From NCBI GenBank assembly GCA_034620365.1, contig JAQGEQ010000380.1, forward strand, positions 4,092,001 through 4,156,000: a DNA stretch of 64,000 nt. The letters are read 5' to 3'. The notes beneath the pieces are model-generated. The model saw nothing but the letters and a program-made list of their open reading frames with translations. It had not been told where the DNA came from and ran no database searches. The position numbers and the translations under genes were made by a program. This DNA is from Pegea sp. RAD2-039. Lineage: Eukaryota; Chordata; Thaliacea; Salpida; Salpidae. Below, piece by piece: positions 2,776 through 64,000 of this stretch; the first letter of the stretch is position 1, and every line of letters starts with the position of its first letter.

Positions 2776-3405
2776 GGTGTGAAAAAACTGAGGGTTGGTC
2801 GTTTAATCGAACGTAAAGCAAGAAGAAAGGGTAATAAGAAGGTGAGAAAGACACGCGATGTTGAGGACCAAAAAGCCATCATTCAGAAGATGAAGTGGAC
2901 CAGAGTACGAGAAACCTTCCTCACTAATGCATGGATGCAGCAACCAGAACAAAACTATAGTTTGGGATTGGCTGCTGTCGAGCATGATTATGCTCTTTTA
3001 GAGCTGAAGAAGAGTATCGGGGGTGATTCAATGAAGTTGGGAGAAAGTCCAGAAGTGAATGATATTCCAGGACACAAGAGAGTTCATTTCAGTGCTTTTG
3101 AAAACGTGAAAAAGATGCCAAGACTCTATTACAGATCATGTATCGTCGAAAATCAGACAAATGAGTTAATGTATCATGAATGTGACTCTGTTAGAAGCTC
3201 AGCAGGAGCTGGGATTTATATTCGAATGTATGATCGCGAGTTGAAGAGCTGGGATAGACGGGTAATCGGAGTCTTTGCCGGATCTCAATGGGTGGATCAA
3301 GGAGCTGGTAAAACTCGTGAATATAATACTGGAGTGAGATTGAATGCAATCAAAATTGCTCAGATTTGTCTCTGGAAGACAGGCTCTGAAAAATGTAAAC
3401 TTTAG
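2776..3405 (+). CDS. PRSS23/PRSS35-like S1 protease homologue, last exon, predicted inactive
   Basis: This is the 3' terminal exon (209 codons plus TAG) of a trypsin-fold secreted protease of the PRSS23/PRSS35 family. The exon opens after TTATAG, and the first codons (GVKKLRVG) continue an upstream exon, so no start codon is assigned. Recognisable family blocks are KLRVG at the start, EHDYALLELK with the catalytic Asp (codon 70 counted from 2779), the HFSAFEN block, and the C-terminal IGVFAGSQWVD and AQICLW segments. The serine site, which in PRSS23 is GxSGSGVYVRM, here reads SAGAGIYIRM: the nucleophile codon at 3208-3210 is GCT (Ala). The His-containing exon is not seen in this window. The protein is therefore probably a secreted pseudoprotease, comparable to PRSS35, which also lacks the serine. 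A lysine/arginine-rich stretch lies at codons 9-25. Family assignment is from recalled similarity and is strong; inactivity is inference. Confidence 0.88.
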   Translation, partial: GVKKLRVGRLIERKARRKGNKKVRKTRDVEDQKAIIQKMKWTRVRETFLTNAWMQQPEQNYSLGLAAVEHDYALLELKKSIGGDSMKLGESPEVNDIPGHKRVHFSAFENVKKMPRLYYRSCIVENQTNELMYHECDSVRSSAGAGIYIRMYDRELKSWDRRVIGVFAGSQWVDQGAGKTREYNTGVRLNAIKIAQICLWKTGSEKCKL

Positions 3406-33100: not shown

Positions 33101-36100
33101 TATTTTGAAAATATTAACTAGGATGAAAATAAACAGAAAAGTTGGAAAAAAAATTTGTGTAATTGAAATTAAAACTTAAAATATATAGATATGAAAAGTT
33201 GGATTAAAATATTCGAAGACAAAAAAATCATAAAAATTGTAGAAGACAGCAAAGCAGCAACAGACTTCAATATTTTTGTTTAATAGTTTCAAAGGTTTTT
33301 TTGTAAAGATCACAGAAAAGTTTTAATCAAATACAAACTTTCAAATGAGCTTTTTAAATTTATTCCCACATTCGAATTGAGAAAGAACAATTGTTTGTTT
33401 ATATACAAAGCGTTTTAATAATCCGTGACTAAAGTATCAGTTAAATGAAGTGTTTAGTTGACTTCTAAAAACTCAAAATTGATCTTTCAATGAATCAACT
33501 TTCTTTTTTTACATTTCTAAACTTCAAGTTGATAGAAAAAGTAAAATTGATTTGCAACTCACATCTTTGTTTTGATCATCAAATAAACTATTAGATAAAG
33601 ATTGATTCGTCTTTTGAGATAAGAATAAATCATCTTTATCTTCTTCAAATAAACTTTTAGAGGTTTGAGAGGCAACTACAAAAAATGAATTAATTGTTGA
33701 AAGAATAAAAATGAAAAAAATCACTTTTAGGAGGATGCGAAGATGACTTTACTGTTGAAGCTGGAACAGAAGGTGATGATCCTGCATCCACTTCAGGAAG
33801 AACCATCAACGAGTCTGTAAGAAGAGAGTATTATCTGCATCAGTAAAAACATCTATTTGTTTACTGATGATAAACCAGAGAGAATATTGTTTACTTATTT
33901 GCAAATCTCTGAGAACTAGAGGTTCTCTAAAATATCAAAATAATCAAACCTAACACTAACATGGTATGAATTGGTGATAACTAAACGAAATTTTCATGAA
34001 AAAAAATTTGTTTAAGGTGAGGCTGAAAAATGTTGTCAAAAAAATAGAAGTAAAAAAGCAAAAAGTTGAAGAAAATACTTCTGGAATGAATTATTTAAAA
34101 GATTTTTTGATTGATCATTCTTGGAGTATAATGAGTATTAGTTGAAAGAAGAAATCTGAAGAGAGGTCAAAAAACATAAGCTGGTGATGAAAGAGGGAAG
34201 GGTGAATAACAATTTTGTGATAGAAGGATTGTTATTTGGCAAATACATACAAGTTAAGTGAGTGAAGTTCGAATCGTAGAAGGAATTATGTTAACAGCTG
34301 TTTATACAAGGTTAAAGATAAATGAAGTTTGATAAAACTAACAAAACAGCAAATAGCTTGGCTGAGAAATTGTTTGATAATCAAATACTTGTATGATTTT
34401 AAGGGAAATAAGATAATATTTGAGTTTGTTTGGTTTATAAGATGGTGGTGATGACGGAGAAAGATAAAAATAAAATTTATTTATTGATTTATTATTTGTC
34501 ATTTAATCCGGTGTTCTGCTTGAAGTCCAACCAAAAATAGAAGATGAAAAAGAAGTCGTTAGCAGACGCAAGAGATTGTAAGGTGAGGAAAGACTAGGGA
34601 GCTACATTAACATCAAAATAACTTCAAGACATTTTTCCAACTCTCATTTCAATTTAAGGTTCATTTAATTGAATTATTTCCCGAAATTAAAACGAAAAAA
34701 CAAAAGTTGAAATTTGATATTTGAAATATTGAGCAGTTTAATTACAATTCAGTTGAAATATATTAAACAGAACATATGAGAAAATGAGAACGTTTTACTC
34801 AACACCCATCACTTCAAGCTGTTTTTTTTACTATCGTATTCAGCTAACTTAAAAAATATTAAAGTCTGTAGAGGTGCGGAAACCAAAACCATTTCTTGTT
34901 CTAATATTATCAAATCATCTACAACCACCACCAACTTGTAATGATATTTGTGGTTGAGTAAAAACAAAAGTAAAAACAAAAGCAACAGCAGACTACTTCG
35001 ATATCGACAAATTGTTGATTGCTCAATTGATGTTATGATGTTTAGGAATTGATTACTTACAACATATTTCTACAAATAGCTTTTAGGAGGGAGTCTATTT
35101 GGAGATTAGTTTTAATCTTTTTAGAGTACGAAAGAGAAGAAGATGATAAAAAAAGAATGAAAAGAAGAAAAATTTGACATTTAAATGTGTTAAAAAGATT
35201 GATTTCGAAAATGAAGTATGAATCGTTGAAAATTGATGAAGATAAGGTTGAAAAATCATAAACAATCATATAAAGAAAATAGAATCTCTTAATTCAGGAT
35301 TCTACATGAATCAATGAAGTTTATAGAGGAGCAAGTAGTCCTGAAGCTGATTAGTTTCAAAAAACAACGAAATTCCACAATGAGTGGAACGTCCGGGAGA
35401 CAGGTGGGGCTGTCTACTGCTGCTGCTGTTGTTGTAGGATTAAATGAGGATTTTTAATTGTATAAAAAGTATTAAAGTTGGTTTCCATCAAAAATGAAAA
35501 TACTTCAATTAAAAAAGCTCCATCTATTTGAGATTAATCAAATATTTTCAAAAAAGAAGATTTTGTAAGAAAGCTTCAGACTTAAACCAAAACGAAAAAC
35601 GACCATTTTAGGGGCACATTCATCAATACCTTTTTCAGCGGCTTTGGCTCGATTTCTTCGTCCCTGGCGTGTAGGAGGTCGCCGACCTGTCTGTCCTCGT
35701 GATCTCTGCTTTGTGAAGCATTCTAATGTTGTATTAGGGTCACTGGAGCGAGAGATAGTGGGTCGTTCTCCTGGTAGAAGACTTTTAGGATTAAGAAACA
35801 AATTCTTCTGCAAATGATAGAAAAAGGGTTTCCAAACTGAATTTTCTAATTACAAATTTACTCGTAGTTTGCTGACGTCGACTTTTCTTCCAGTATCTTC
35901 CACTTCATCAACTGATCTAAAAAGATCAGATAATGACGTCAATGAGCTCGATGATGTCACAGGGTAGCGAACACACATGAGTGACAAATCAACTTACTTT
36001 AGTGGCTTACTAGCGCCAACTGGCGGTGCAAATACGGCAACAGCGCCCGCTGGTGGCTTCTTTTTTATCAAAGGAGATGGAGATGAGATCTTATTGACAG

Positions 36101-39100
36101 TTTCTAAGTTTAAAGATAGAAAGATGAAATATGACGTCATCAAAAGCACGCAATTAAACTAAAAACTAACCTGTAATTTCGGTTGTGTCTTCAGATGAAG
36201 ATACAAGAGATGATGATGATTTGCTGACTTCTTTACTAATCTTAGGTGTTGGTTGGATGTTGAAGAGATCATCTTCTTCATCATCTTCCTCGTCACTGGC
36301 ATCAAACAGACCTTTTGTGGTGGCTTTTGTCAACGGCTTGTCTTCAGTCTTCTCTGACACTAACAAATCATCTTCATCTTCTTGATCATCCACATCCGGC
36401 TTTGTGAAGATCAAAAATTATTGATAAAAATCAATTTTAAAAAGAAAGAAAAAGTTCTTTGAATTATCAGAAGCAAATTAGAAAATCGACTGATGATATC
36501 AACACACGAATATGAGCTAATTTACAAGACACACAAGATTCTGTGTGAAGATCAACAAATGATCTGATGATTGAAATCAAGCAACTGAATTAAAGTTGGA
36601 AGTTTCACGGTTGGTTGAACATCAATGGTTTTCACCAATTATTTCCTGTTACGAGAAAAAAGTCGATTTTTTACCTTTTGCTCTTTGACTTTGGGTCGGG
36701 AATTGAGAAAGGCGAAGAGATCATCATCTGATGAAGATTCGGACACAGCAAACAGATCACTTTTTAAACTTTTAGTTTTCTTTTCAGATGATTTTTTGAT
36801 TTTTGAATCAAAAAGATCTTCATCGTCATCTAGGAAGAGCTGGGAGCCACTGACTCGCGTCTTCTTCTCAATTGAAGTCTTCGGAAGTTTTTTAGATGAT
36901 TTTAGGGGAAGTTTAGATGAAGATGAGAAAAGATCGTCTTCACTAGATCCCGTGCTGAACAAGTTTTGTGAGTTTTTGGAAGATTTGATGAAATTTGATT
37001 TTTTGGGTTTGGCAACACTTTTAAAAATTCCTTTATCTGATTCTTCATCACTAGAATTAAAGATCAGATCTTTAGCTGTTGTCTTTACTTCAATCTTTAG
37101 AGGTTGCGTTGAAGCAAAAGTCCCTTTTTTAACAGCTTGGGGTTTACTTGTTGCTGTAACCTTAAATTAAATTTCAAATTATTGCAACAAAAGCCAATCA
37201 CAACACTTCATCAAACAATTAATTGCTTCAATAAGAAATCTTTCAAAATCCTTAAATCTTTTCCTACCTCTGAAGAGCTGCTCTCAGATGATGAAGATCT
37301 TTTCGCTTTTTTCTTCAGAGCTGCTTTCAACAAATCACTTCCTCCTGCTCCAAACATTGAAACGCCACCTACTGGTCGCTTTTTATCTTCACTGATCCCG
37401 GATGTAACTGATGCAGATGAATATTTAATCATTAAACAAAGATTTAATCAAAAAGAAACCTTTTTTAGGAATTTCTTCACCAAAAAAATCATCTTTTTCG
37501 TCATCTTCATCAAATAGAGAAGATTTTGTTTTCGATGATGGCGTTGTCATGGTAACTGTCGAAATTGAAATTTTAATCGAATTAATTGAAGAAAACAACA
37601 AAAAGTGAAAAAATTTCTTCAATTTTTGTAAATTTTACCCGAAGCTGTCTTGCTCTGACTGGATCCAAATAACTGATCCTCATCCTCATCTTCATCTAAA
37701 TCACTTCCAGCAAATAGCGATGACTTGCTCTCTTCAACTTTAGCTCCTGGGATACTCTCTATTTGTTAAAAGTTTCAAAATTTATTTCTACTGATCGAAA
37801 TCTTGATCAAGACCTCCAAGTGGTTTGCCAGCGGATGCAAAGAGGTCCTCATCAGACTCTTCTGACTCATCAAACAAATTGTCTTTTGAAGTCTTTACTA
37901 CTTGATGCTTTGGATCTTCTTTTGTAAACAGATCTTCATCAGATGAGCTGGAATCATCTCCCTACAAATTACAGATTGCAATTTGAAATATTTCTTGATT
38001 TTGAAAACTTATTAAAGGAAGGAGTCACGTGACTAACATTGAAGAAGTTCTTCTTGATGACTCCTCCAAACAAGTTGACTCCTCCAGCAGGAGGTTTCTT
38101 TGTAGTTTTTTCGAGTTTAGGAACAGGAGCTTCAACCTCTTTTGGAGCAGATTCTTCAACTTCTTTAAAATCTTCTTTATCTGATTCAATCTCATCGACT
38201 CCTTCAAAAAGATCTGAAGAAGAAGAAGAGGTCAAAGATTAATGAGAAGATAGTTCATCTTCTAGATGAAAATACAAAAGAGTAATAAAACACTGACCTC
38301 CAGTGGTAGCTTCAACATCAAAGAGACCTCTTCCACTTCCAAACATACCACTAGTAGGAGCAAAGAGGTCATCTTCTTCTTTCTCAGCAAACATATCTGA
38401 AAAGATGATTGTGTCATCTCATCATCATCACATCTTCTAATTACCGAAATCTGATTCCTTCTTCTCTTTTTTCGTCGAACTTTTCTTCAAATCTTTTTTC
38501 TGTGACAAAATCTGAAAAGATTGAAATTTGATGGAATTTGATGAAAGAAACTTCGTGAAAGTTTACATCTGTTGAAGAAGGTTTAAAAAGATCTTCATCA
38601 TCTAAATCTTCTTCATCAGATGAAAGACTCTGATCACTTGATGATGAGCTTTTCAAGGATTTTTGCTTGGCATCTACAGCTGCTGAATCATCTTTCAAAA
38701 TAACAAAGTAATTTGGAATTGATTCAAATTAAACCAGAAATGCTTCCAGTTGAAGAGTAGAACCTGAGACATCTTCATCACTTGTATATAGAGATGATGT
38801 AGCATCAGACACAGTTACAGCTTTCTCAATTTCATCTTCCGATTCACTCACAGAATCAGTTTCACTTTCATCTAGAATAAAGAAAATAATTGAAAATAGA
38901 AAAGTTAAAATCAGATGAGGACCTTCAGTGTCTTCTAAATCTCCAATCCCAACATCTTCAGTTTCCATGAAAGGCCGACTTCCGATCAAATGAGGCAGAG
39001 GTCGGTTGATATAAGGGTCCTAGTCAGTTTTGGCATCAATTACTTATTATTGAAGATGAGAAGACCTACTTTTGCTTCAAGAATAAACTCTGCTGGTTCA

Positions 39101-41160
39101 CTATCATCATCGTCATCAGATTCAATGTCGGAGTCATCTGCTCCAACTTCCAAGACATCATAGCAGTTTTCAACAACTCCCAGACCAACTTTAATAGCTT
39201 CTTTCATCTAAATAAGATCATCTGATGATGATTGAAGTTTCATATCCTCATCACTTACATTAGATTGTAATTTCGACTGAATCTCCTCAGCTGATAGATT
39301 TTCTTCATCTTTTTTTTCTTCTTCTTGATTTGGAGGTGAATCTTCATCATATACTCGCTAGAATAATCACATTATCTCAATTCTAAATCTAAAGACTTAA
39401 ATGAGTACATTTGCTTTTGATGAATTTTAGAATTTTAAATCGAGTCAGTATTTAAGACAAACTACAGAATGATTGCAGAAAAAAATGTTCAAAAAATAAG
39501 AAATTTGTGTGGAACATGATATAGAAACTTTACAAAGTCTTATGAAGTATTGTTCTAAAATAAAAGAAATAAGAAACCAAAACTGAAAAGATTTTATTGT
39601 AATTTGTAAGGTTTGAAAATAAGGTGAAGCAATTTTGTACATTTTACAAGACTAACAAAGCAACATTCCCACAAAACTTGATTCACTAAATTCCAAATTA
39701 TTCTTTTAATTTCTCAATCATTTAAATCTAGAAGTTTTACAGAAAATACAAACTATAAATTATTTATCGACTAAAGTCATATTTTCGATAAATTTTAATG
39801 TTTTGAGCACAACAGCTTGTTATCACAATATACAAGTTTGAAAAGTTTTGAAATGTCACAAAATAGAAGATTAAATTTGTAAAAAAATCATTAGACAGAA
39901 ATAATTGTACAAAATAGTCTTATATTGATGACATATAGCTTGGAGAAAGTGACATTATTATCGATATAGATGTTTAGGTGGAAACAACTAGGCTCTCTTG
40001 CAACATTTAGAGTTTTAAAGACTAAAATATCAACTTTATCTGTGCAAGGTAGATTTATTCAAGTTCCTATCGCCTTTAACAATTAATTTACTCTTAAAAT
40101 ATTTTTTATCAACAAAATTGAAGATGTAAGCTAAAAATACTATCTTTTTATCAGCTTACTGATAAGCTTCTCATTAAAGTTGACTAATCTGAGTTAAATT
40201 GAAAAAATTATTTCACAAAAGTTTGCAACAAATTATTTCTCAGTTTAAAAATGTCTACCATAAAATTAGTAATTTGAATCATAAATGTTTTATAATATTT
40301 TTAATTAGTTTTATATAAATCATTTTAAATTCAAAGTAACTGAATAAAAAAAGACAAAAATATTAAAGTTAGCTCACATTCTCAATAAATTGAGTATCAC
40401 TCAACGACATAAAGCTGTTAGTAGCTGTTTGTAGTTTTGCATCTGCAGATTTTGTATCATGAACCAGCTTAGAGACATTGCGAGAAATCTCATGAGCTTG
40501 TGAAGTCAATTTGGATGCAAAATTTTCCATGTAAGCCAATAGCTGATGAAGCAATAATCAAAAATTTAATTCAAAGAATTCACTATTTTTCTTATGATAA
40601 AGGCTTAATGAATTGTTTTGTAAAAATATAAGTTGATATATTATTAATTTCAAAATTAAAAACTTTATTAGCTAATTAGGAAAAAATTATTAAAATTTTA
40701 ACTAAAAAAATATCAATTTTTTTCAAAATTACTGAAGTTAATTACTAGATCCTAATTAAGATTAGTCTTCATAAAAGTTTTAAAAACTAATAGCTTAAAA
40801 CTTGAGAAATTAGTTAAAATTAATGGTTTTAACAAGTAATAGTATATGACCGAAAAATGTATTAATATACAATTTATCAAAAAGTTTGATGTAAAAAACT
40901 AACTCCAATATCTGCTGCTAAAGACCAATTTTCAGCATTTTTTCTTATTTCTTCTAAAGACCAAATATGATCTTGATGGGATGCATCATTCTGAAAAATA
41001 ATAAATTGTAAAAAACAACTTTTCACTAAAAAAACAACAATATTGATAATTTATATTAATAAAATTGACTTTTAAACAATTAACAGCTTTATGACATTTA
41101 AAGCTAATATACCTTTACTTTATCAGAATTTAAGTTTTCTTTATTTGATTCATCAGACAT
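30166..41160 (-). CDS. WASHC2: WASH complex subunit 2 (WASHC2/FAM21), 25 exons, 1122 aa
   Basis: WASHC2 is the scaffold of the WASH complex, which drives Arp2/3 actin assembly on endosomes. Its tail binds retromer VPS35 through repeated LFa motifs (L-F, acidic run, L/I-F). Exons: 41113-41160, 40904-40990, 40378-40542, 39259-39357, 39070-39207, 38923-39019, 38764-38871, 38567-38691, 38445-38511, 38298-38396, 38038-38213, 37814-37961, 37639-37758, 37460-37555, 37268-37407, 36675-37160, 36171-36399, 35998-36103, 35862-35916, 35630-35807, 33725-33814, 33563-33675, 31032-31100, 30409-30613, 30166-30290. Phases agree throughout. The head (residues 17-220) carries the family signatures [24 protein letters not shown] and [13 protein letters not shown]. 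The tail is Asp/Glu/Ser-rich with about 15 LFa-type motifs. Residues 891-914 match the capping-protein-interaction motif, and the C-terminus FEDPLNALF matches the family end. It is shorter than human FAM21 (about 1340 aa). Head and end are secure; exons 20-23 are less so. Confidence 0.93.
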
Positions 41161-43756
41161 TTCAAAATTCATAAATCAAAGATTACAGAAATTTAATAAA
41201 TCTGTAAAATTTGATATTTTTAAAACTTGTTTAATATTTAACTATGCACATAATCAGAACCTTTTAAATGATAAGATGTTAATAATTATAGATATAGCAT
41301 ACTTTAAAGAAAACTTAAAATAAGTCTTTAACATAAATAATATTAAAGTATGTAGTGTTTAACTTTAATGGCATAAATAAACAAACAAACATTTTACTTG
41401 ATATCAATTTTGTAAGTTAACTAGATATCAAAAAGGTTTAGAGTTGTTAACTCTAATGGACTTTTTTGTTATGATCAAAATCTCAAACATATTAAAAAGA
41501 TGAAAATAACAAGCTATTAGCATTTACAGAGGTTATAAGGATATGAAATAGAACTAAAAGTAATTATTTGGAAATAAACAAGGCTATAAAAGTAATAATT
41601 GCACAAAAAAATTCATGTATTATTTATTAAAAGTAAAGATTCAATTATTGCTTCAAAATATATCTCCCTGATATTGTTATTTTTTAGTATTTACAATGGT
41701 GTTCGATATTCAGTATTCATAAAAGTTTAATTTAGTTTATCATACAATTAGTTTGACCAAAATACCAAGCTAGGTTAGAACATAAATAATTTTCAAAAAT
41801 TAAATAAAATAGCGAAATTTTTTTGAAACTAATTGTCTATATAATAAAAACTCTATCTTTTAAATTTATTCATTTTTTACTAGATTAAATGGAGATTTAC
41901 CTACTAGTATCCTTATGCAATGTATTTTAGAAATAATTTATCAAGTTTGCTAAATTCAGTTGAAATATGAATTCACCGCAGAAAATCATAAAATCTCAGG
42001 CTGTTGAAAGCTATGTTCGATTATATGTTTGGATAGAAGTAAATCTTACTTTGGTGTTTAAATTTGAAGTTTAGAAGATATCATCATCAGTATAAAATTG
42101 CAGATGTAAAAGTATCAAAAAACTATAAGAATTTTAAAACTTAATTGCTCTCTTTAAAAGAAAGATAAATGCATGTGTCTCTTTTAAAAACCATTCAGAC
42201 ATTTAGAAATTTGAAGAAATTTCTTTTTCAGACTATTTTGTAATGCTAAGAGATGAAGCTTGCACCAGCTATAAACTCCCTACATGTAGTCTTAAGTAAT
42301 TCAATCAATCTGAGTCACTTAGAGTGAAGATTTATCCTTTCAAAGGACTTGCCTTCTAGCTTCAAGGTTAAAAAAATTCACAAATCGACAAACTCTAAGA
42401 GATTGAGAACTTTTTATAGATAGCCTAAATGTTTTCTATCATGCAGTATAAACAGATTTGTAGCAGTATCAGTTGGACATTTAACTAAAATAAAGATTGT
42501 TTACCAAAGCTGTTTTTAAACGGCTACATTACATTGAACATCAGAAAATTTAGTAGATTTGTAGATTTATAAATGATCAAATTTTCTCTTAGACTACAAA
42601 ATTAATACGTCAAGTACTCATGTATACTGTGCATGTGGAGAAATAAGAAATAAATTTTTCAATTAATACTTGAAAAGAACTTCTAGACATCAAGTAGGTA
42701 CTGCAAATGAAATCAATAAACCTTTAATTCTTAGGTGAAAAGTTGTCTTTCATCAATTACATGTGAAGTTTGGGTTGAAGAAGCAATATTTTAAGCCAGT
42801 AAAGAGGAAAGCTGCTTTAAATACTTATGTAGTCTTTTTCTAGGACTTTCAAATGAGAAGATGAAAGCTAGCATTTTTAATAGATAATAAATTCATGCTA
42901 ATGAAAGATTCAAACTTTGTCAAAAAGAATGAACTGAATTTAGTTTACTTTATTCGAGTATTTTAACATTTTTAGCGATCACAAAATCTTTAATTGGAGA
43001 AAGTTGGTGAAAAAATGCTCTATGATTTAAGGCAATTACGTACTATCTTGAACATTAAATTTCGTATTCTAATCAGCGTATGTGGGAAACTACAGTTGAA
43101 AAAGTAGAGAAAAAAATCGTCATGATATAAAATTATGGAAGAAAAATATAAAACTATGATAATTAAAATTAACTTAATAAATTGATCAAAAGTGTCGCAC
43201 AATCTAGGCCTAATTTGAAAAAATCCTAGGAAAACCCGCGAAACACGCAATAACTGTCTCCCAAAAACTTGTTTTGTAAAAACACTATCTATCTTCTCAC
43301 AAAATTCTGAATTGCTATATAATAATTTTAATTTTCTGTATCGGGATTGTAATGAAAATAAATGTATAATAAATTGCTTACTACGGCAATAGTGAGTAAG
43401 AACCCAACTGTAGACCACACATAAAAACATTTCTTAATTTTTGTATAATGACACTGAATATTACAAGCTTACAAACAGTTGTTTCAAAAGTTTTTATTTC
43501 TTAAAATTGTTCAATTTATTTTCACCTGAATTTATTTGTGACTGAAAAAAGCTGTTCCAAATATCGATTATAGCTAAGTCATTTTCCTTGTGTATTTTTC
43601 CTTTGTTATTTTTAAATAAAATATTCTGCTGATAAATATATTTTCAGTTTACAAGCACATGTAATATAGATATAACTGGCATCAGCTAATCATTTTGTAA
43701 AGCTATACAAGTTCACAAGAAGAGTTTTAATATTACTCAAAAAAATTTCAAGTACT
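41161..43756. other. Intergenic region between WASHC2 and PDX1
   Basis: This stretch holds the presumed WASHC2 promoter (right of 41160) and 3'-flanking DNA of PDX1. No recognised gene is seen. One unusually long open frame is listed separately at 43020-43430. No clear TATA box or conserved site stands out. Confidence 0.5.
43020..43430 (-). CDS. Hypothetical 136-codon open frame, unrecognised
   Basis: An ATG-to-stop frame of 136 codons lies downstream of PDX1 on the same strand. I do not recognise the product. The visible features are a basic, Cys/Phe-rich N-terminal half and a hydrophobic segment near residues 87-100 (LILIIIVLYFSSIILY) that could span a membrane. By a rough estimate from base composition (about 8 percent stops), a frame this long is unexpected by chance, but the composition is not convincingly protein-like. 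It could be a decayed exon, a retroelement scrap or chance. Confidence 0.2.
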   Translation of the reverse strand: MFLCVVYSWVLTHYCRSKQFIIHLFSLQSRYRKLKLLYSNSEFCEKIDSVFTKQVFGRQLLRVSRVFLGFFQIRPRLCDTFDQFIKLILIIIVLYFSSIILYHDDFFLYFFNCSFPHTLIRIRNLMFKIVRNCLKS

Positions 43757-43766
43757 TTTATTTATT
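43757..43766 (-). terminator. Putative polyadenylation signal, PDX1 gene
   Basis: Two overlapping TTTATT hexamers on the + strand (AATAAA on the - strand) lie about 70-75 nt beyond the PDX1 stop codon, a typical spacing. Confidence 0.6.
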
Positions 43767-43832
43767 ACCAAATAAACATTTCGGTTGCTGTATATTTACA
43801 AAACACAAAACTTCAACTAAGCAGGAAAATAT

Positions 43833-45849
43833 CTATTTGCCAGCCCATCTAACCTGTAGGTCATCACAGTTTATTCCAACCTGTAAGCAAGTAGAAGTTT
43901 CAATAAATCTAGGTTTAAAGTGATTTAATTCATGTTGTCTTAATATCAAATATTTCCAACTTCTTACCATCGCTGTTCCCAAATCTTCGCTAACTTCAGC
44001 CAAAACTGCTGGATCTTTATAGTGAGTAACAGCTTGAGCCATGGCACGAGCTCTTTTTTCAGGACAATTGCTCTTAAATATTCCAGACCCGACAAAAACT
44101 CCATCAACTCCGAGCTGCATCAGAAGTGAGACGTCCGCTGGTGTCGCTACAAAAATCAGTTTATATATGAAGATGTTTAGTCGGATCAGTTTTCAAATAA
44201 AAATATCCTTACCTAGACCACCAGCTGCAAAGTTAGTGACGGGTAAGCGGCCTAGCCGCGCTGTTTCCTTCAACAGATCATATGGGACCTAATATACAAG
44301 TAAAAGTAGTTAGCATGTGAAAGTAAGACTCTAAGCTAAATTCAAACCTTGATAAACAAGTATTAAATCGAAGTATGGTTAATAAAGAACGTTTTCTCAA
44401 AGAATTTTCAACAATTAATCACTAACTTGTAGCTCTTTTGCATATGTGTAAAGCTCATCATCATCTAAACTTTTAGCGCGGCCAATTTCTTGTTTAATTG
44501 TGCGTGCGTGTCGTACGGCTTCAACTACATTACCAGTACCAGCTTCTCCCTACAAATAGTATTACTATGTTGCTTAAAAAGAGACTTGCTCGTTAAAGAA
44601 TAATTTTTCCAGCTAAAAACGCAAATTATTTTCTAATTGAAATTATATTTTATATATTTTTAGTTTATGCCTAATTAAAATTCCCTTTGAAAGACTACTT
44701 AAATTTATCAAAATAAGTTCTACTTGTTATTTAATAAACAATCACCTTCGTTCGAATCATTGCAGCGCCTTCAGAAATTCGTCTCAAGGCTTCACCAAGA
44801 TTACGAGCTCCACAAACAAATGGAGTTGTGAAAGATTTCTTATTTATATGATTATCTTCATCAGCCATAGTTAGAACTGAAAAATATATCTTTATTTTTT
44901 GCTTGCTCATTGATAAAAATCAAATCTAAATAATTAAGAAGTTTTACAAAAAATAAGCTCGAAAAATGATGTCAAACCTTCAGACTCATCAATCATGTCA
45001 ACTCCTAGATGCTGTAAGATTTGAGCTTCACCAAAATGACCAATTCGCACTTTAGCCATCACAGGAATATTTACAGCATTCATAATTTCTTTGATCAACT
45101 AAACATTCAGAAAAAAGATCTTAGTGTAAAGTCTGATCTAGTGATGTAGTACTCACTTTCGGATCACTCATGCGAGCGACACCTCCGTCTTTTCTTATAT
45201 CTGCAGGAACTCTTTCAAGAGCCATGACAGCACATGCCTTAAAATAAACTCATGTTTTCAATGATCAAAAAATTATACCAATTTAAAGCAAGAAAGAGAA
45301 GTAAATGATGATTTTAATTAAACAAATGTAGAATACTCACTCCAGCAGCTTGTGCAATTTTTGCTTGTTCAGCATTTACAACGTCCATAATAAGACCCCC
45401 TCTAACCATTGTAGCAAATCCAGACTTGACAACAAAAGTCCCTGAAAAATTATTCGTCAATTTCTATTGAGAATTAAACGTTCGTTTGCACAACTTTCTG
45501 CAAGACTGTTGCGCGGCTATTGCGTAACTTCAAGAGCATAGTAACAGTCGTTTACAAGCTGTGTGGTGTTAGATTGATAAAATATGTCTTAGGTCAGTTT
45601 TTGAGTCAATTAATTATAATTTTATATAAAAAATGCTTTTGGGATATTTTTGAAAGTTAAATATTTTATAATATTTTATAAACATGTTAAAACATGTTAG
45701 ATAAATAATTGTAGAGGTTCATAAACATTCAAATCTGTATTTTTAACTTTTATTTAAATAATTACAAACTATAGCATCTAATGTTAACATTAAAACTTTG
45801 AAAAGTTAACTACAAAACCATTTTTACCTGTTTGGTTTGTTTCTACCAT
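43833..45849 (-). CDS. PDX1: Pyridoxal 5'-phosphate synthase, PdxS/PDX1/SNZ subunit, 9 exons, 293 aa
   Basis: This is the synthase subunit of the DXP-independent vitamin B6 pathway, a (beta/alpha)8 enzyme. It makes PLP from ribose 5-phosphate, glyceraldehyde 3-phosphate and the ammonia supplied by PdxT. Exons: 45828-45849, 45341-45441, 45157-45237, 44978-45098, 44746-44876, 44427-44549, 44213-44288, 43968-44146, 43833-43880. Phases agree and the total of 882 nt gives the usual PdxS length. Key residues are present: Asp27 in [10 protein letters not shown], Lys84 in [10 protein letters not shown] and Lys152 in IRTKGEAGTGN (equivalent to B. subtilis D24, K81 and K149), plus the phosphate loop FAAGG and [11 protein letters not shown]. 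The short tail ends in WAGK, unlike the longer bacterial end. One family position differs (HFGEA where HFVEA or HIVEA is usual). Eight GT-AG introns rule out bacterial contamination. It lies head-to-head with PDX2. Confidence 0.97.
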
Positions 45850-47044
45850 GATAGAGAGATTTTCAAAGCTTTTACAAAGATTTACTTAAAATTTTGTCAA
45901 ACTTAAAAAAAATAAAATTTATTAATCTTTTTTGATATTCTCTATACTCAATTTCAATTTATCTGAAGTTATCAAAAAGATACAAAGCAACAAAACAAAA
46001 AGTTGAATCTTTCACTCTATATTGCATGCCAAAGTTAAAACTACTTATGCAACTAACACTGTTCATACAACTATCTAACCGCATAAGCATTTGATTTCAA
46101 GCTAATTCGTAAGTCTATTAAAACTTCAGCTAGTGACCTTCTCATCTCTTCTTTCCCTTTTTTCCCGCACTTTTGTTTTGACTAGCATATCACTACTTGA
46201 TAACTAGTAAAGTTAACTGATTTATTATTTAGTTTATTTATCAGAATATTTTTGTTGAACCTAATCGGTATTAGGCTTGCTTACTTCAAACTGCTTCAAG
46301 TTATTCTTTAGCTGAAATTTAAAATACTTTGCAGAATTTTATAGGAAAACTCTTTACTTATAGACTGAAATTCTAGAATAAATCAATACTCAGCGTCTAG
46401 AAATTTTCGTGTATTAAGTTAGCTGTTAACAAAGAGTTCAGTTAGATTTAAATATCCTCTGGGTAAAAACTCAATGAAGTGGAACTTTTATTTGTGCTGA
46501 CGCACTAACTAAAAGGCAGCTTTTGCAGTTTTATATGTAGTTTCTCCTATGCGCTTTTGATTTTGATTTTTTTGGTTAGTCTGTTGATTTAGTTTCTTAA
46601 GAGGTTGCTGTGCTTACTTAATAAATGCCTTCAAACTTTAAATTTAAAAAGATTAAATAGTTTTTTAATTTTTATCAGCAATTTTACTATAGTTAACATT
46701 TTAATAGATTTAAACTAAAAGCTTTCAAATAGGATCATACTATCTAGTTATTTTTTTACTGAATACGCAAGTTAAGCAAATTGTTCAGTTTCATCAACTG
46801 ATTTTTAACAATTTATAAAAATTTTACACTTTACTAAATATAAACAAACTTATCATTCCGTAATTCATAAGTTTGTTGCAATAGTTATGACAATGAACTA
46901 TTAAAAAAATTTCTTTAAAACCGTTTAATTTACAAATTAAAATTTGAAAAATTTTGAAATTCATCAATATTTTCAGAATTATTTTTACATAACCTGCTTG
47001 TGAGCATAGTGTGATCTTTTGAAAGTGTAAATAAAGCAAAGATC
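45850..47044. promoter_or_regulatory. Divergent PDX1/PDX2 intergenic region, likely shared promoter
   Basis: About 1.2 kb separates the two start codons, which point away from each other. No other gene is visible; the 71-codon - strand frame at 46824-47039 is of low complexity and not supported. In fungi the SNZ and SNO homologues are likewise paired and co-regulated, so a shared bidirectional promoter is a reasonable inference. I do not see a well-placed TATA box or a clear palindromic operator for either gene. Confidence 0.5.
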
Positions 47045-48336
47045 ATGGATCAACAGTAAGTAACTTACTCTAATAATTATAAACTCTTAAGTAATGATAA
47101 AAAGATAATATATAGAGTGAAATATTTCTAGAATATGAGTATTTTTGTTTATTAAAGATTAAAGTTACTTGAAAAAACGTTTGAAACTCTAAAAAAATCA
47201 AAGTTTGAAGTAAATTAAAAGTAAACAACAATAATATTAACAGGCTTAAAATTGGAGTGCTAGCTATACAAGGTGGTTTTTCTGCTCATACTGATACCCT
47301 CAAACAATTAAGCGATCTATCAGCAGATGTAAAACTGGAGGTTATTGAAGTACGAAAAGCCAGTGACGTGAGAAATTTGATCCTTTTATGTTTGAAAATG
47401 AAAAGAACAATTTATTTTTGTAGTTGGATACTATAGATGGGCTAATCATACCAGGTGGTGAAAGCTCAGTGCTGTCACTTCACTTAAGTATCGGAAATTT
47501 AATGGAAAAAGTGAAAATGTTTGTCAAGAATAAACAAAAAGTAAAATTGAATAATTTTAATTAATTGCTGCGATAGATGATAACAATGATAAGATACTGA
47601 AGTTGTCTATTATTATCTAGTCTACTAAAGGTTCTTTAAAATTCTTTATCTTTTGTTATTAGCTTGTTTTCTATTGGTACTGAATCAATATCAGGATATC
47701 AAAACATCCTCTTAATACTAATATCTAATTTCATCAATTTTAGTAAAAATATTTTAGTTTATTGAAACTTTAAAGATTTCACAACAAAGTTGAACTCTAA
47801 AAGAAGCTTCAATTATCAAATCAAGCTAAAAAAAGTTGTTGTTTTTACAGTTTACTTGGGGTACTTGTGCTGGTCTTATTCTTCTATCTGAAAGTATTGA
47901 AGGTGAAGGAAAGAATGAAGTTCAACAGGTTCAATATTCGTCATTCACATAAAAAAATTAAATTTTAATCTTTTACCCGAAGATTGGAGGCTTAGACATT
48001 ACTTGCAAACGAAACTACTCAGGTCGTCAAAACAACAGCTGTGAGAGTCCACTTATTCTTACAGAAGAAGATCTAGTAGCTTCTAACGGAAACAAGAAAG
48101 AATTTAAAGGAATTTTTATTCGCCCACCAGGTGTTGTATCGGTTAATAGCCCGGATGTTAAAGTATTAAGCAGAAGAGATTTAGAAGGTTCTTCTGAGAT
48201 TGTAGCTGTTCGTGATGGTAACGTGATGGCCTGTTCTTTTCATCCCGAGCTTTGCAATCACGATAGTCAATTTACATGGCATCGCTATTTTGTGAAAAAT
48301 GTTTTAAAATATAAACATCCAAATTGTAGCATTTAA
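47045..48336 (+). CDS. PDX2: Pyridoxal 5'-phosphate synthase, PdxT/PDX2/SNO glutaminase subunit, 5 exons, 227 aa
   Basis: This is a class I-type glutamine amidotransferase that hydrolyses glutamine and channels ammonia to PdxS. Exons: 47045-47055, 47244-47367, 47424-47540, 47851-47928, 47983-48336 (684 nt, in phase). The start MDQQ is followed directly by the family opening KIGVLAIQGGF. The oxyanion-hole motif PGGESS is at residues 55-60, the nucleophile is Cys90 in WGTCAGLILL, and the His197/Glu199 pair lies in SFHPEL, completing the Cys-His-Glu triad. RNYSGRQNN (120-128) and IRPPGV (156-161) are further PdxT blocks. Compared with bacterial PdxT (about 190-200 aa) it has modest insertions, for example around 135-152, and a short C-terminal extension. 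Exon 5 uses the weaker acceptor CCCGAAG. It is divergently paired with PDX1, which fits co-expression of the two subunits. Confidence 0.96.
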
Positions 48337-49635
48337 AATCTGTAATGATATATGAAACAATTTATTGTTTTACATTGTGACAAATATGTTCAAATTTCAT
48401 GAATTTGAATTGAAACTTGTTATACTTTTATCATTTTTTTCTTTTTGTACTTTATTTTAACTAAATCGTATAAAATTTGATAATAACTTTACTTAGTTTA
48501 TCACTCAGTGTAAACTAGAATATTAAAGTTAAATAAATAATTAGATTTTTTATTTGTTATAAAGTTTCAATCAGATAAAGTGATAAAAAAGTTTATTGTC
48601 AATTTAAAGTTGTTCTTCAAAACATTCAAGCTTTTATTTAAATACTAAAACTTCTGAGCAATAAGAGGAAACATTTTGATGATTGCAATATTTATTTTAT
48701 GAGTATTATGTTATGTAAAAATAAGTTTAAATGATAGTTTACCTTCAAAAAAATTGTAGTGAACTCTATTTGCTTAGTAATCAGTTTTTTTATCTCATAA
48801 CGTCATAAAATATTTATTTTTCAACAAAATAAATAAAAGCTACTTTCAAATATAAGAAAGTCACAAAAATGTGATAAATGAGAAAATTCTTAGAAAAGTT
48901 TTACAGACTATCTACATATTTAAAATAAAAGGTTTAGTGATGAAACTTTTTTAAATTTTACAATAAGTTAAAAGATCTAGTACAAAAATTTGATAAATTA
49001 TATTTGTTAGATGTAAAAAATGATGTAATCAAAGCTTTCATCAACTACAGTTAGTTATAATTTAATTCTTAAAATAGAATGTTAAGGTGAAATTTTGGGC
49101 GGTTGCAAAGTTTTTAAATACTTCGCCATGCTTCATTGCATATAGAATAAAAAAAATATTCAAAATCATTTTCAAAATTGGTAAGTTTGATTTAGACATT
49201 TAAACAAATTTTCTTACGATTAAAGAATGAATTGACGAATCATTTTTTTATAAAAGGAAGTTTATAATAAGGGCAAATTATTATTAGCTTTGAATGAAGA
49301 AATTACGTCAATAGAGAAGTTGTTTTTATTAAAATGTTATTCTAAGATTTATCAAAATAAAAGAAACTCTTTTTACTTTCATCAGTTTTAGCAATTGATA
49401 GATTTTTTTGGCTGATTTTATAAAGATAGATCATCTAATGCTGATCATTTAATCAAATTATGAGTTTGATATTTTGTACATTAAATTTTTGTAGCTCATT
49501 ATTAAACTTCTTATGTAACTATAAGCGTAGACATAAAGTAAACAGTTTATCTTTAATAAAATTAGAATGAGCTTGGTAAAACTTCGATTCGTTAATTATT
49601 AACTAATATCAGATGTTTTCGTATATATTTACAGC
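48337..49635. other. Intergenic region between PDX2 and annexin
   Basis: AT-rich, with no protein-like frame. An AATAAA at 48532-48537, about 200 nt after the PDX2 stop, is a candidate polyadenylation signal. The right end runs into the annexin promoter. Nothing else is recognised. Confidence 0.5.
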
Positions 49636-52161: not shown

Positions 52162-54848
<2,687 letters not shown>

Positions 54849-61924: not shown

Positions 61925-62750
61925 CGAACTGTTGTGCAGTGAGCAGGAAGAAGAGTCTCTTAGTTTACAAATCAATAGATTTTGAAACAAATCCGTAGCT
62001 TTGATTTCAACAAAAAATCATAAATATTTGTCGTTTTATTTTATGTTGAAAAAGTCAACAGCAAAATAAAAATCTTGCAGAATCCGTTTGACAATATATA
62101 AAAGAAGAAGAAAGAAGTAAGAAGTCTCTAGAACTAAAGCAATTGATGAAGAGTTAAAGACTTTAAATAACTCTCTTGTTTCTTTTTAACATAATGTCAT
62201 ATTACGACAAACGAAAAACTGGAACAAGCAGCTTAAATTGAAAAAAGACTTCAGAAGACACACGAAACGATTATTTTAGTAACATTGAGAAGAAAATTCG
62301 AAAGAACGTGAAGGCAAAAACTACCTCTGTTTTACTCCGCTTTTGATGGTGAATGGTTCAGAGCAGCTTTCATCAAACTGGACTATTGCCTTAATGTCCA
62401 CGTGAAACGATTTTACCATGTTAAAGTTCATTGTTAAAGAGGTTTGGTATATCTTTAACAGTGTCGATAACAGACCTTTCTTACTGACGTTGTCGAAAGC
62501 TATGGTAAGGTCAATGAAGACGATGTATAAAATCCTGTATAATTCATTGCAAGTTTCCTGTAGTTGACATAAAAAGAATCATGTCTGTAATAGAGCGTTT
62601 TGATCTGAAACCACATTGTAACTTAGAATATCCTTTCAGCCAATATTTGCAGCCGAGTAAGTAACATATGAGTTTTGTCCACGATGACAAGGATATTCCT
62701 CTGTGATTATTACAATTGGACCAAGCTCCTTTTTCTTATTGCCACGCTCC
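61925..62750 (-). mobile_element. Non-LTR (LINE) reverse transcriptase remnant, frameshifted
   Basis: Read on the - strand, reverse transcriptase landmarks of LINE elements appear in order: CNNHRGISL (62688-62714), LQCGFRSKRS (about 62592-62621), FIDLTIAFDNV (about 62486-62518, motif A region with the catalytic Asp), EPFTIKSGVKQR (about 62325-62360), FFRIFFSMLL just after, and a badly decayed FADD-box-like region near 61937-61965. The pieces lie in different frames with stops between them, so it is a dead, truncated copy. The endonuclease domain and 3' tail were not recognised. The order and wording fit jockey/CR1-like LINE families common in invertebrates. Confidence 0.8.
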
Positions 62751-64000
62751 ACGCCTGCTTAAACTAATGTACGCTTCTTATGTGTACTCTGTATTTTTCT
62801 ATTGTTTTAAAGAGATTTTCATTGGTTGCAGTCAGCCACTTAAGAAAGAAAGAGACCAGATGCTGAAGATATTTTATCTTTCTCGTTTTGAAGGAAGCAG
62901 TGCTCACTTATAGGGCTGCTTGGTTGTCCGGATGCTACTGCCGTTTCCATGTCAGATTCAAAATGGCCTATACCTTTGATCCGCTCATATGCAAGATCAA
63001 AATTGTGGCTTTCAGTGCCATCTTCTACCTACCAACTACATCCCCTTTTCATCACTTAGTAAACTTTTATTGTAATCTTTGCATCAAAGCTGCCTACCAG
63101 GGCTGATAAGACTCTGATTTTTTAGCTGCGTAGCTTTTACTACGATTTAGATTTTTTATCTTGGTTTACTCACACAGCCTTTGCTTCTACCAAAGTAACC
63201 GTAAGGCAGTGGGACTATTTGCTAGTAGTTATGTTTCCTACCTACAACTTTCATAAGCTAAAAGTTGAGCAAATTCTCTTTTCTAAAATAATAACTCGAA
63301 TGTGTATTGAGAGAGTTTAAATCAACTAGAATTTGAACAAACACTATAGTCATCTTTTTACTATTATTTAAAAAATGATAATTTGCTAACGATTTAATTC
63401 TTTACCTTATATCTTACTATCAAAGATAAATAATTTTTCGTAGAATTGAACTTTATACATTTCTTAGGATTATTTATCCTTGATATTTATATATTATGAG
63501 AAAATTAATATATTGATGACAGCAATTTTACTTATTGATCATAATTCAGATTACCTGGAACTAGAAATCACAAGTACATCTTTTAACTGAAAAAATATTG
63601 CGACATCAACTACTTACCAAAGTTCCAATTTTAAAACAACAAACTTGTAGATGAATATAAAACTTATTTTTAGATCAAAGTATATTTTGCGGCAAGTTTT
63701 TAAGTATGAAAATATCACGATTATTTATTCATAGAATCTTCTATACATTATTGATTCAGTAAATTGTTTTCGATCTGAGCAGAGACATTTGCAACTTTTC
63801 ATTTTTTTTTGTATTACTAAAACTCAAGGCAAAACAATAACTATCAAGCTAAAGAAAATACATAAAAGTTTGTATTTGAATGTAATTTTGCTGCTGGTAA
63901 ACAAAATATCAGAATATGAACTAATGTAAAAAGTAAAGAAGTATTTTAACATTATTCCATCTGATCAAATGCTGAGGACTTGACAACGTGATTCAAGTCA
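62751..64000. other. Flank of the LINE remnant; no gene recognised
   Basis: Between about 62750 and 63240 the DNA is noticeably richer in G+C than elsewhere and contains two + strand frames (62716-62913 and 62888-63106) overlapping and beside the reverse transcriptase remnant. Neither encodes a recognised protein. They may be antisense or linker parts of the same decayed element. From 63240 to the window end the sequence is ordinary AT-rich DNA with no supported feature. Confidence 0.45.

Follow-up and report, generated by a model that had tools for sequence, protein, structure and literature searches.

A divergent PDX1-PDX2 gene pair predicted to encode a complete PLP synthase in a tunicate genome

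The PDX1-PDX2 locus

We analyzed a 64,000-bp stretch of genomic DNA (hereafter the window), which covers positions 4,092,001-4,156,000 of contig C6 (4,267,586 bp) in an assembly made up of 387 contigs and totalling 105.7 Mb. At positions 43833-48336 of the window lie two divergent genes, PDX1 (PdxS/SNZ) and PDX2 (PdxT/SNO), which are predicted to encode the synthase and glutaminase subunits, respectively, of the pyridoxal 5'-phosphate (PLP) synthase independent of deoxyxylulose 5-phosphate (DXP). By translating the window and then building exon models for both genes from splice signals and homology, we obtained spliced genes whose outer limits agree to the base with those of an earlier annotation made from the sequence alone (hereafter the original prediction).

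PDX1 (43833-45849, minus strand) consists of nine exons that together encode 293 amino acids without any stop. Exon 1 (45828-45849, 22 nt) carries the start codon, and the N-terminus aligns with that of Arabidopsis PDX1.1 (MTETKQ). By combining the splice model with protein alignments, we located D27 in exon 2 (45341-45441), K84 and E108 in exon 4 (44978-45098), H118, R140, R141 and K152 in exon 5 (44746-44876), and the GEAGTGN motif together with K190 in exon 6 (44427-44549). Exon 3 (45157-45237), exon 7 (44213-44288), exon 8 (43968-44146) and exon 9 (43833-43880), the last of which holds the C-terminal tail and the stop codon, follow from the splice model. The spliced protein matched the curated family model TIGR00343 over its full length (E = 4.4e-140, 466.2 bits for a curated cut-off of 438.45) as well as NF003215 (E = 3.5e-147, 489.6 bits for a cut-off of 395). 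It aligned to Arabidopsis PDX1.1 over 292 residues without a single gap, hence no residue appears to have been gained or lost at the exon junctions relative to PDX1.1. Identity reached 71.5% with PDX1.1, 70.8% with PDX1.3, 61.6% with yeast Snz1 and 68-74% with five prokaryotic proteins, the PDX1.1 and PDX1.3 sequences being those of PDB 5lnt and 5k2z, which we take to come from Arabidopsis.

PDX2 (47045-48336, plus strand) consists of five exons encoding 227 amino acids. Exon 1 (47045-47055, 11 nt), with the start codon, and exon 2 (47244-47367) come from the splice model; alignment with homologues additionally places a GGES motif in exon 3 (47424-47540), C90 within GTCAG in exon 4 (47851-47928), and H197 and E199 within FHPEL in exon 5 (47983-48336), which ends with the stop codon. 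We also tried an exon 3 ending at 47510, which gives a protein of 217 amino acids, and rejected it: this model left a ten-residue hole before GTCAG relative to seven homologues, and the GTAAAA donor at 47541 closes that hole. The 227-residue protein matched the SNO family of Pfam (E = 1.3e-45, 156.1 bits for a cut-off of 27) and was used for the PDX2 tree; the 217-residue version was the one compared with TIGR03800 (E = 1.6e-38, 132.5 bits for a cut-off of 105.55), with solved structures, with PdxT at prokaryotic loci and with the homologues in the alignment. The best solved-structure matches of PDX2 were Pdx2/PdxT chains, and the three that we aligned, presumably from Plasmodium, Methanocaldococcus and Thermotoga, were 39-42% identical to it. 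On these comparisons, both proteins match their curated families far above chance and their family assignment is secure. Moreover, a six-frame search of the assembly gave five SOR_SNZ matches, all of them exons at the PDX1 locus, and two SNO matches, both at the PDX2 locus, which indicates one copy of each gene at the sensitivity of such a Pfam search.

Then, we compared PDX1 residue by residue in an alignment of nine proteins (the protein described here, two from Arabidopsis, yeast Snz1 and five prokaryotic ones). D27, K84, E108, H118, R140 and R141 were identical in all nine, K152 in eight and K190 in six; the exception at K152 is an arginine in PDB 5lnt, which we take to be an engineered mutant. 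In PDX2, alignment with homologues showed that C90, H197 and E199, which we assume to be the catalytic cysteine, histidine and glutamate, are present. With an offset of +3, K84, K152, E108, H118, R140, R141 and K190 of PDX1 correspond to the catalytic residues of Bacillus subtilis PdxS, in which K81 binds ribose 5-phosphate, K149 is the PLP lysine, E105 acts as a gate and H115, R137, R138 and K187 form the P2 site (PMC3024981). The counterpart of the essential C-terminal R288 of the B. subtilis enzyme would be R289, a position in a gapped tail that is arginine in four and lysine in three of the seven other proteins with a residue at this site. Thus the original prediction that both subunits are full length and equipped with D27, K84 and K152 (PDX1) and C90, H197 and E199 (PDX2) was borne out, and its PDX2 numbering is right for the 227-residue model.

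The two genes are interrupted by eight (PDX1) and four (PDX2) introns of 54-386 bp. All twelve are bounded by GT and AG, in agreement with the spliceosomal introns claimed originally, and eight have a length that is not a multiple of three. Exons were richer than introns in guanine and cytosine (GC) in both PDX1 (0.43 vs 0.25) and PDX2 (0.37 vs 0.22), while third-position GC was 0.28 in PDX1, 0.24 in PDX2 (217-residue model) and 0.24 in a neighbouring HSP70 frame. Neither stop codons nor frameshifts were found across the 14 exons. The tiny first exons, and hence the start codons of both genes, are the least certain part of the models. Between these start codons extend 1195 bp (45850-47044) with a GC content of 26%, an AT-rich interval that we presume to be a bidirectional promoter. 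A DNA search of the genome with this interval matched only the interval itself, which gives no repeat-based sign of integration, and within 43700-48500 we detected no repeat of at least 25 bp.

Genomic setting, host and vitamin B6 salvage

The surroundings of the pair bear on whether it belongs to the host genome. The pair, with some 127 kb between it and the end of its 4.27-Mb contig, is flanked on both sides by genes that Pfam identifies as eukaryotic or animal-type, as the original prediction had proposed for its neighbours. On one side, the window contains an exon of a WASHC2/FAM21-like subunit of the WASH complex (CAP-ZIP_m, PF15255; 35541-35849, minus strand, E = 3.7e-7). On the other side, there are an annexin gene with two frames bearing annexin repeats (PF00191; 50699-51322, plus strand) and an HSP70 gene whose largest frame spans 52868-53509 on the minus strand (PF00012, E = 4.3e-73) and of which a further frame ends, by eye, with GPTIEEVD. 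A C2H2 zinc finger is also among the Pfam-identified neighbours, and a Tlx-like homeobox lies on the same contig.

We then asked what the assembly as a whole represents. First, we found 27 Wnt matches distributed over eight contigs, against none in the 14 prokaryotic genomes used as controls. Second, there were 71 homeodomain matches, including a pair of posterior Hox-type homeoboxes separated by 22 kb on contig C235, and Hox3- and Hox4-type genes at 809-837 kb of contig C18 with introns within the homeobox; these class names, like that of the Tlx-like gene, rest on homeodomain signatures. In the tunicate Corella, Hox12 is linked to Hox13 away from the other Hox genes, and Hox2-4 are linked (PMC7337526). 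Third, at 71.7-75.7 kb of contig C14, a GT2 frame (PF13632, E = 5.8e-17; PF13641, E = 6.6e-10; PF03552, E = 1.1e-7) precedes, on the same strand, two GH6 frames that begin 1.5 and 2.5 kb downstream and score 35.0 bits, above the PF01341 cut-off of 27, and 21.9 bits, below it. The order of these frames suggests a GT2-GH6 fusion of the cellulose synthase CesA. According to a published survey, the GH6 domain of this fusion occurs in eight of eight tunicates and in none of 35 other metazoans, and look-alikes of the CesA domain in Monosiga, Mnemiopsis and Octopus were judged non-orthologous (PMC6523144). Because GT2 followed by GH6 is the architecture of tunicate cellulose synthase, we conclude that the host is a tunicate; a rotifer or another invertebrate, considered on the grounds of genome size and GC content, was rejected in view of this finding. 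Judged by its gene content, the assembly is therefore that of an animal, as predicted originally from the DNA around the pair, and more precisely that of a tunicate.

Against this background, it is very improbable that the pair is DNA of a contaminant or a symbiont, or was misassembled onto an animal contig. COX1 had no match in the assembly, which suggests that the mitochondrial genome is not included and means that purity cannot be checked by the mitochondrial barcode; in addition, the tunicate marker CesA lies on a contig (C14) other than that of the pair. Such an origin is nevertheless hard to reconcile with the neighbours on both sides within a multi-megabase contig, with the Tlx-like homeobox on that same contig and with spliceosomal introns in both genes. 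The GC content points the same way, since that of the window (0.265) resembles the 0.25-0.30 measured at 13 loci of the assembly that carry Hox, CesA, Tlx or salvage genes.

The genome also carries genes for the salvage of vitamin B6. Pyridoxal kinase (PDXK) is represented by one fragment, the best solved-structure matches of which are the pyridoxal kinases 6yjz and 1lhp, presumably both mammalian. Pyridoxine 5'-phosphate oxidase (PNPO), of which animals usually carry one gene, is represented by two genes with both Pfam domains, located at 177800-178153 of contig C108 and 790609-790971 of contig C258, one of them with a longer N-terminal frame. For PdxJ, which belongs to the DXP-dependent route, we found no PF03740 match in the genome, whereas 4 of the 14 control genomes have one. 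Taken together, the salvage genes and the PDX pair suggest that this animal can obtain vitamin B6 by salvage as well as by its own synthesis.

The presence of both genes does not by itself mean that they work, and the pair could be a non-functional or repurposed relic, with little or no transcription or with a role other than PLP synthesis. Several features of the models weigh against a working enzyme. PDX1 deviates at positions 24, 38, 91, 211, 224, 225, 255 and 276, where the eight comparison proteins are invariant; PDX2 has IRPP where all seven compared sequences have IRAP; and weak donors such as GTTTGA and GTTCAA occur among the introns. Likewise, an animal with salvage genes may not depend on de novo synthesis. 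However, none of the eight deviating positions of PDX1 is one of the catalytic residues that we checked, all of which are present in both subunits, and the exons are free of disruptions. Also, both partners have been retained as a pair, and a subunit moonlighting on its own could do without the other. We therefore consider a relic unlikely. Leaving aside where the genes came from, the tunicate nuclear genome very probably encodes a complete and working DXP-independent PLP synthase, as far as can be judged from the sequence.

Some further observations were made in the window and the assembly. Around the exon of the WASH-complex subunit, a long series of acidic frames that contain DLF/LFD motifs extends over 33600-39300 of the window on the minus strand, which we take to fit the tail of FAM21. 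A 208-residue frame at 2779-3405 (41% GC) looks trypsin-fold-like by eye and had no Pfam match. Reverse-transcriptase-like frames (AFDNVSKKGL) at 62324-62764 resemble, again by eye, a fragment of a long interspersed nuclear element; Pfam had no match for the single frame that was scanned. Outside the window, positions 4256-9800 of contig C27 contain a ribosomal DNA unit with complete 18S and 5.8S genes and a 28S gene that extends beyond the fetched stretch. Three shortened 18S copies were seen at the end of contig C1, on C125 and on C278; two of these copies align with the 18S model at either end and yet are far too short, so that internal parts seem to be missing.

Origin of the pair

The original prediction left the choice between ancestral retention and transfer of a linked pair to phylogenies of both subunits. 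We built these trees with prokaryotic, Arabidopsis, yeast and Plasmodium rows; their backbone is open, and they fit retention as well as an old transfer. The prokaryotic PDX1 set comprised the best 80 of at least 591 confirmed matches and is biased, mostly towards Chloroflexota and Streptomycetaceae. The eukaryotes, apart from the tunicate, were only those with solved structures, presumed to be Arabidopsis, yeast and Plasmodium. The PdxS tree had 85 rows (the tunicate, two Arabidopsis proteins, yeast, 80 prokaryotic proteins and one viral contig) and the PdxT tree had 38, after 33 Streptomycetaceae rows had been thinned to 6.

Horizontal acquisition is a serious contender that we still rate somewhat below probable. 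An ancestor of this tunicate, or of tunicates in general, would have gained the linked pair from a eukaryote (fungus, alga or protist) or from a bacterium, and introns and composition would have adapted later; this is compatible with a working enzyme. Tunicates provide a precedent in the transfer of CesA (PMC6523144; PMC6339383), and animals are reported to lack the pathway (PMC7954711). In Ciona, 14 putative alga-derived gene families have been described, and a word search of that text gave neither "pyridox" nor PDX1 or SNZ (PMC3494510). The nearest sampled prokaryotic proteins to both subunits belong to Chloroflexota. For PDX1, the best match was a metagenome-assembled genome (MAG) of Caldilineaceae with 76% identity over 280 amino acids, the other 79 loci reaching 68-74%; for PDX2 (217-residue model), identity to the closest proteins was 42-43%, at loci picked by PDX1 similarity. 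The viral collection yielded one relative, at 65%. The free PDX1 tree splits the four eukaryotic rows, which were united in 0% of 200 bootstrap trees, and joins the tunicate to the Caldilineaceae MAG, albeit without support (40/38).

Four observations speak against such an acquisition, at least a bacterial or recent one. First, in the nine-protein alignment the Caldilineaceae protein was closer to Arabidopsis PDX1 (77-79%) than to tunicate PDX1 (74%), so the Chloroflexota match is not specific to the tunicate and does not mark a donor. Second, the branches of tunicate PDX1 and PDX2 are long and unsupported in the free trees, and neither falls with support within any sampled bacterial group. 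Third, PdxT was detected at 61 of the 81 loci (80 prokaryotic and one viral contig), and in all 61, one of which is viral, pdxS and pdxT are co-oriented, unlike the divergent tunicate genes. Fourth, the presence of twelve introns would argue against a recent event. Approximately unbiased (AU) tests rejected neither a grouping of the four eukaryotic PDX1 rows (p = 0.365) nor one of the tunicate with Arabidopsis (p = 0.44), and for PDX2 a grouping of the tunicate with Plasmodium was not rejected either (p = 0.51) and appeared in 50% of bootstrap trees.

Thus, nothing in the trees and comparisons indicates that the pair came recently from any of the sampled bacteria. Our slight preference is for long vertical retention or a very old acquisition, rather than for a recent transfer of any kind. 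In its strongest form, retention would mean that the linked pair goes back to the last ancestor shared by all animals and still supplies an invertebrate chordate with vitamin B6 of its own making, a possibility that we rate as less likely than not.

A candidate tunicate PLP synthase among known systems

Whatever its origin, there is nothing unusual about this PLP synthase as an enzyme, and the surprise is its host, an invertebrate chordate. By analogy with characterised enzymes, PDX1 would form a dodecamer decorated with PDX2 (12+12), in which C90, H197 and E199 of PDX2 would draw ammonia from glutamine and channel it to PDX1. Ribose 5-phosphate would be bound on K84 (P1 site), and PLP would be finished with glyceraldehyde 3-phosphate on K152, at a P2 site formed with H118, R140, R141 and K190. 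We infer that the divergent genes are expressed, probably from one shared promoter, and that their products assemble into an active enzyme, which would supplement the usual animal salvage by PDXK and PNPO with de novo vitamin B6.

According to a review, animals are unable to synthesize vitamin B6, although some sponges are listed there as having the pathway (PMC7954711). Since the pathway has already been reported from sponges, what is unexpected here is the place, namely a complete pair in a tunicate. Among the open-licence PMC matches listed, no paper had tunicate PDX genes as its subject, judging by title and the start of the abstract, although databases may hold the pair. Tunicates being the sister group of vertebrates, a complete pair in one of them would extend B6 autonomy far into the chordates. 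If it was inherited from an animal ancestor, B6 dependence would reflect repeated separate losses rather than a trait common to animals or to chordates, and the loss in vertebrates would postdate their split from tunicates. The pair would make this question of loss versus transfer testable through intron positions and denser sampling of tunicates, and it bears on the nutrition of filter feeders and on their need for symbionts as a source of the B6 cofactor.

Compared with known systems, bacterial and archaeal pdxST belong to the same protein families, with PDX1 identities of up to 76%, and differ in their co-orientation. In plants, the catalytic residues of PDX1.1 and PDX1.3 match those of tunicate PDX1, save the arginine of 5lnt, whereas several paralogues exist (PDX1.1, PDX1.2 and PDX1.3 in PDB) in place of the one copy found here. 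The yeast SNZ and SNO genes form divergent pairs, to which the head-to-head likeness to fungi pointed out in the original prediction would refer. Yeast SNZ1/SNO1 (Snz1 being PDB 3fem) encodes the same two-subunit enzyme, with the more distant PDX1 noted above. Yeast has three paralogue pairs (PMC6385983), compared with one tunicate pair containing 8 and 4 introns. The nematode Globodera rostochiensis is likewise an animal with a B6 synthesis gene, and there transfer is the published reading: one gene of the SOR/SNZ family is listed among its horizontally acquired genes, with reference to Craig et al. 2008 on Heterodera (PMC4901422). In contrast to this single SNZ-family gene, the tunicate has an adjacent two-subunit pair. 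Another parallel in an animal is the sponge Suberites domuncula, in which SNZ and SNO reportedly also lie head to head. Both DXP-independent subunits occur in that animal as well (Seack et al. 2001, cited in PMC7954711), whereas the host described here is a tunicate, that is, a bilaterian and a chordate.

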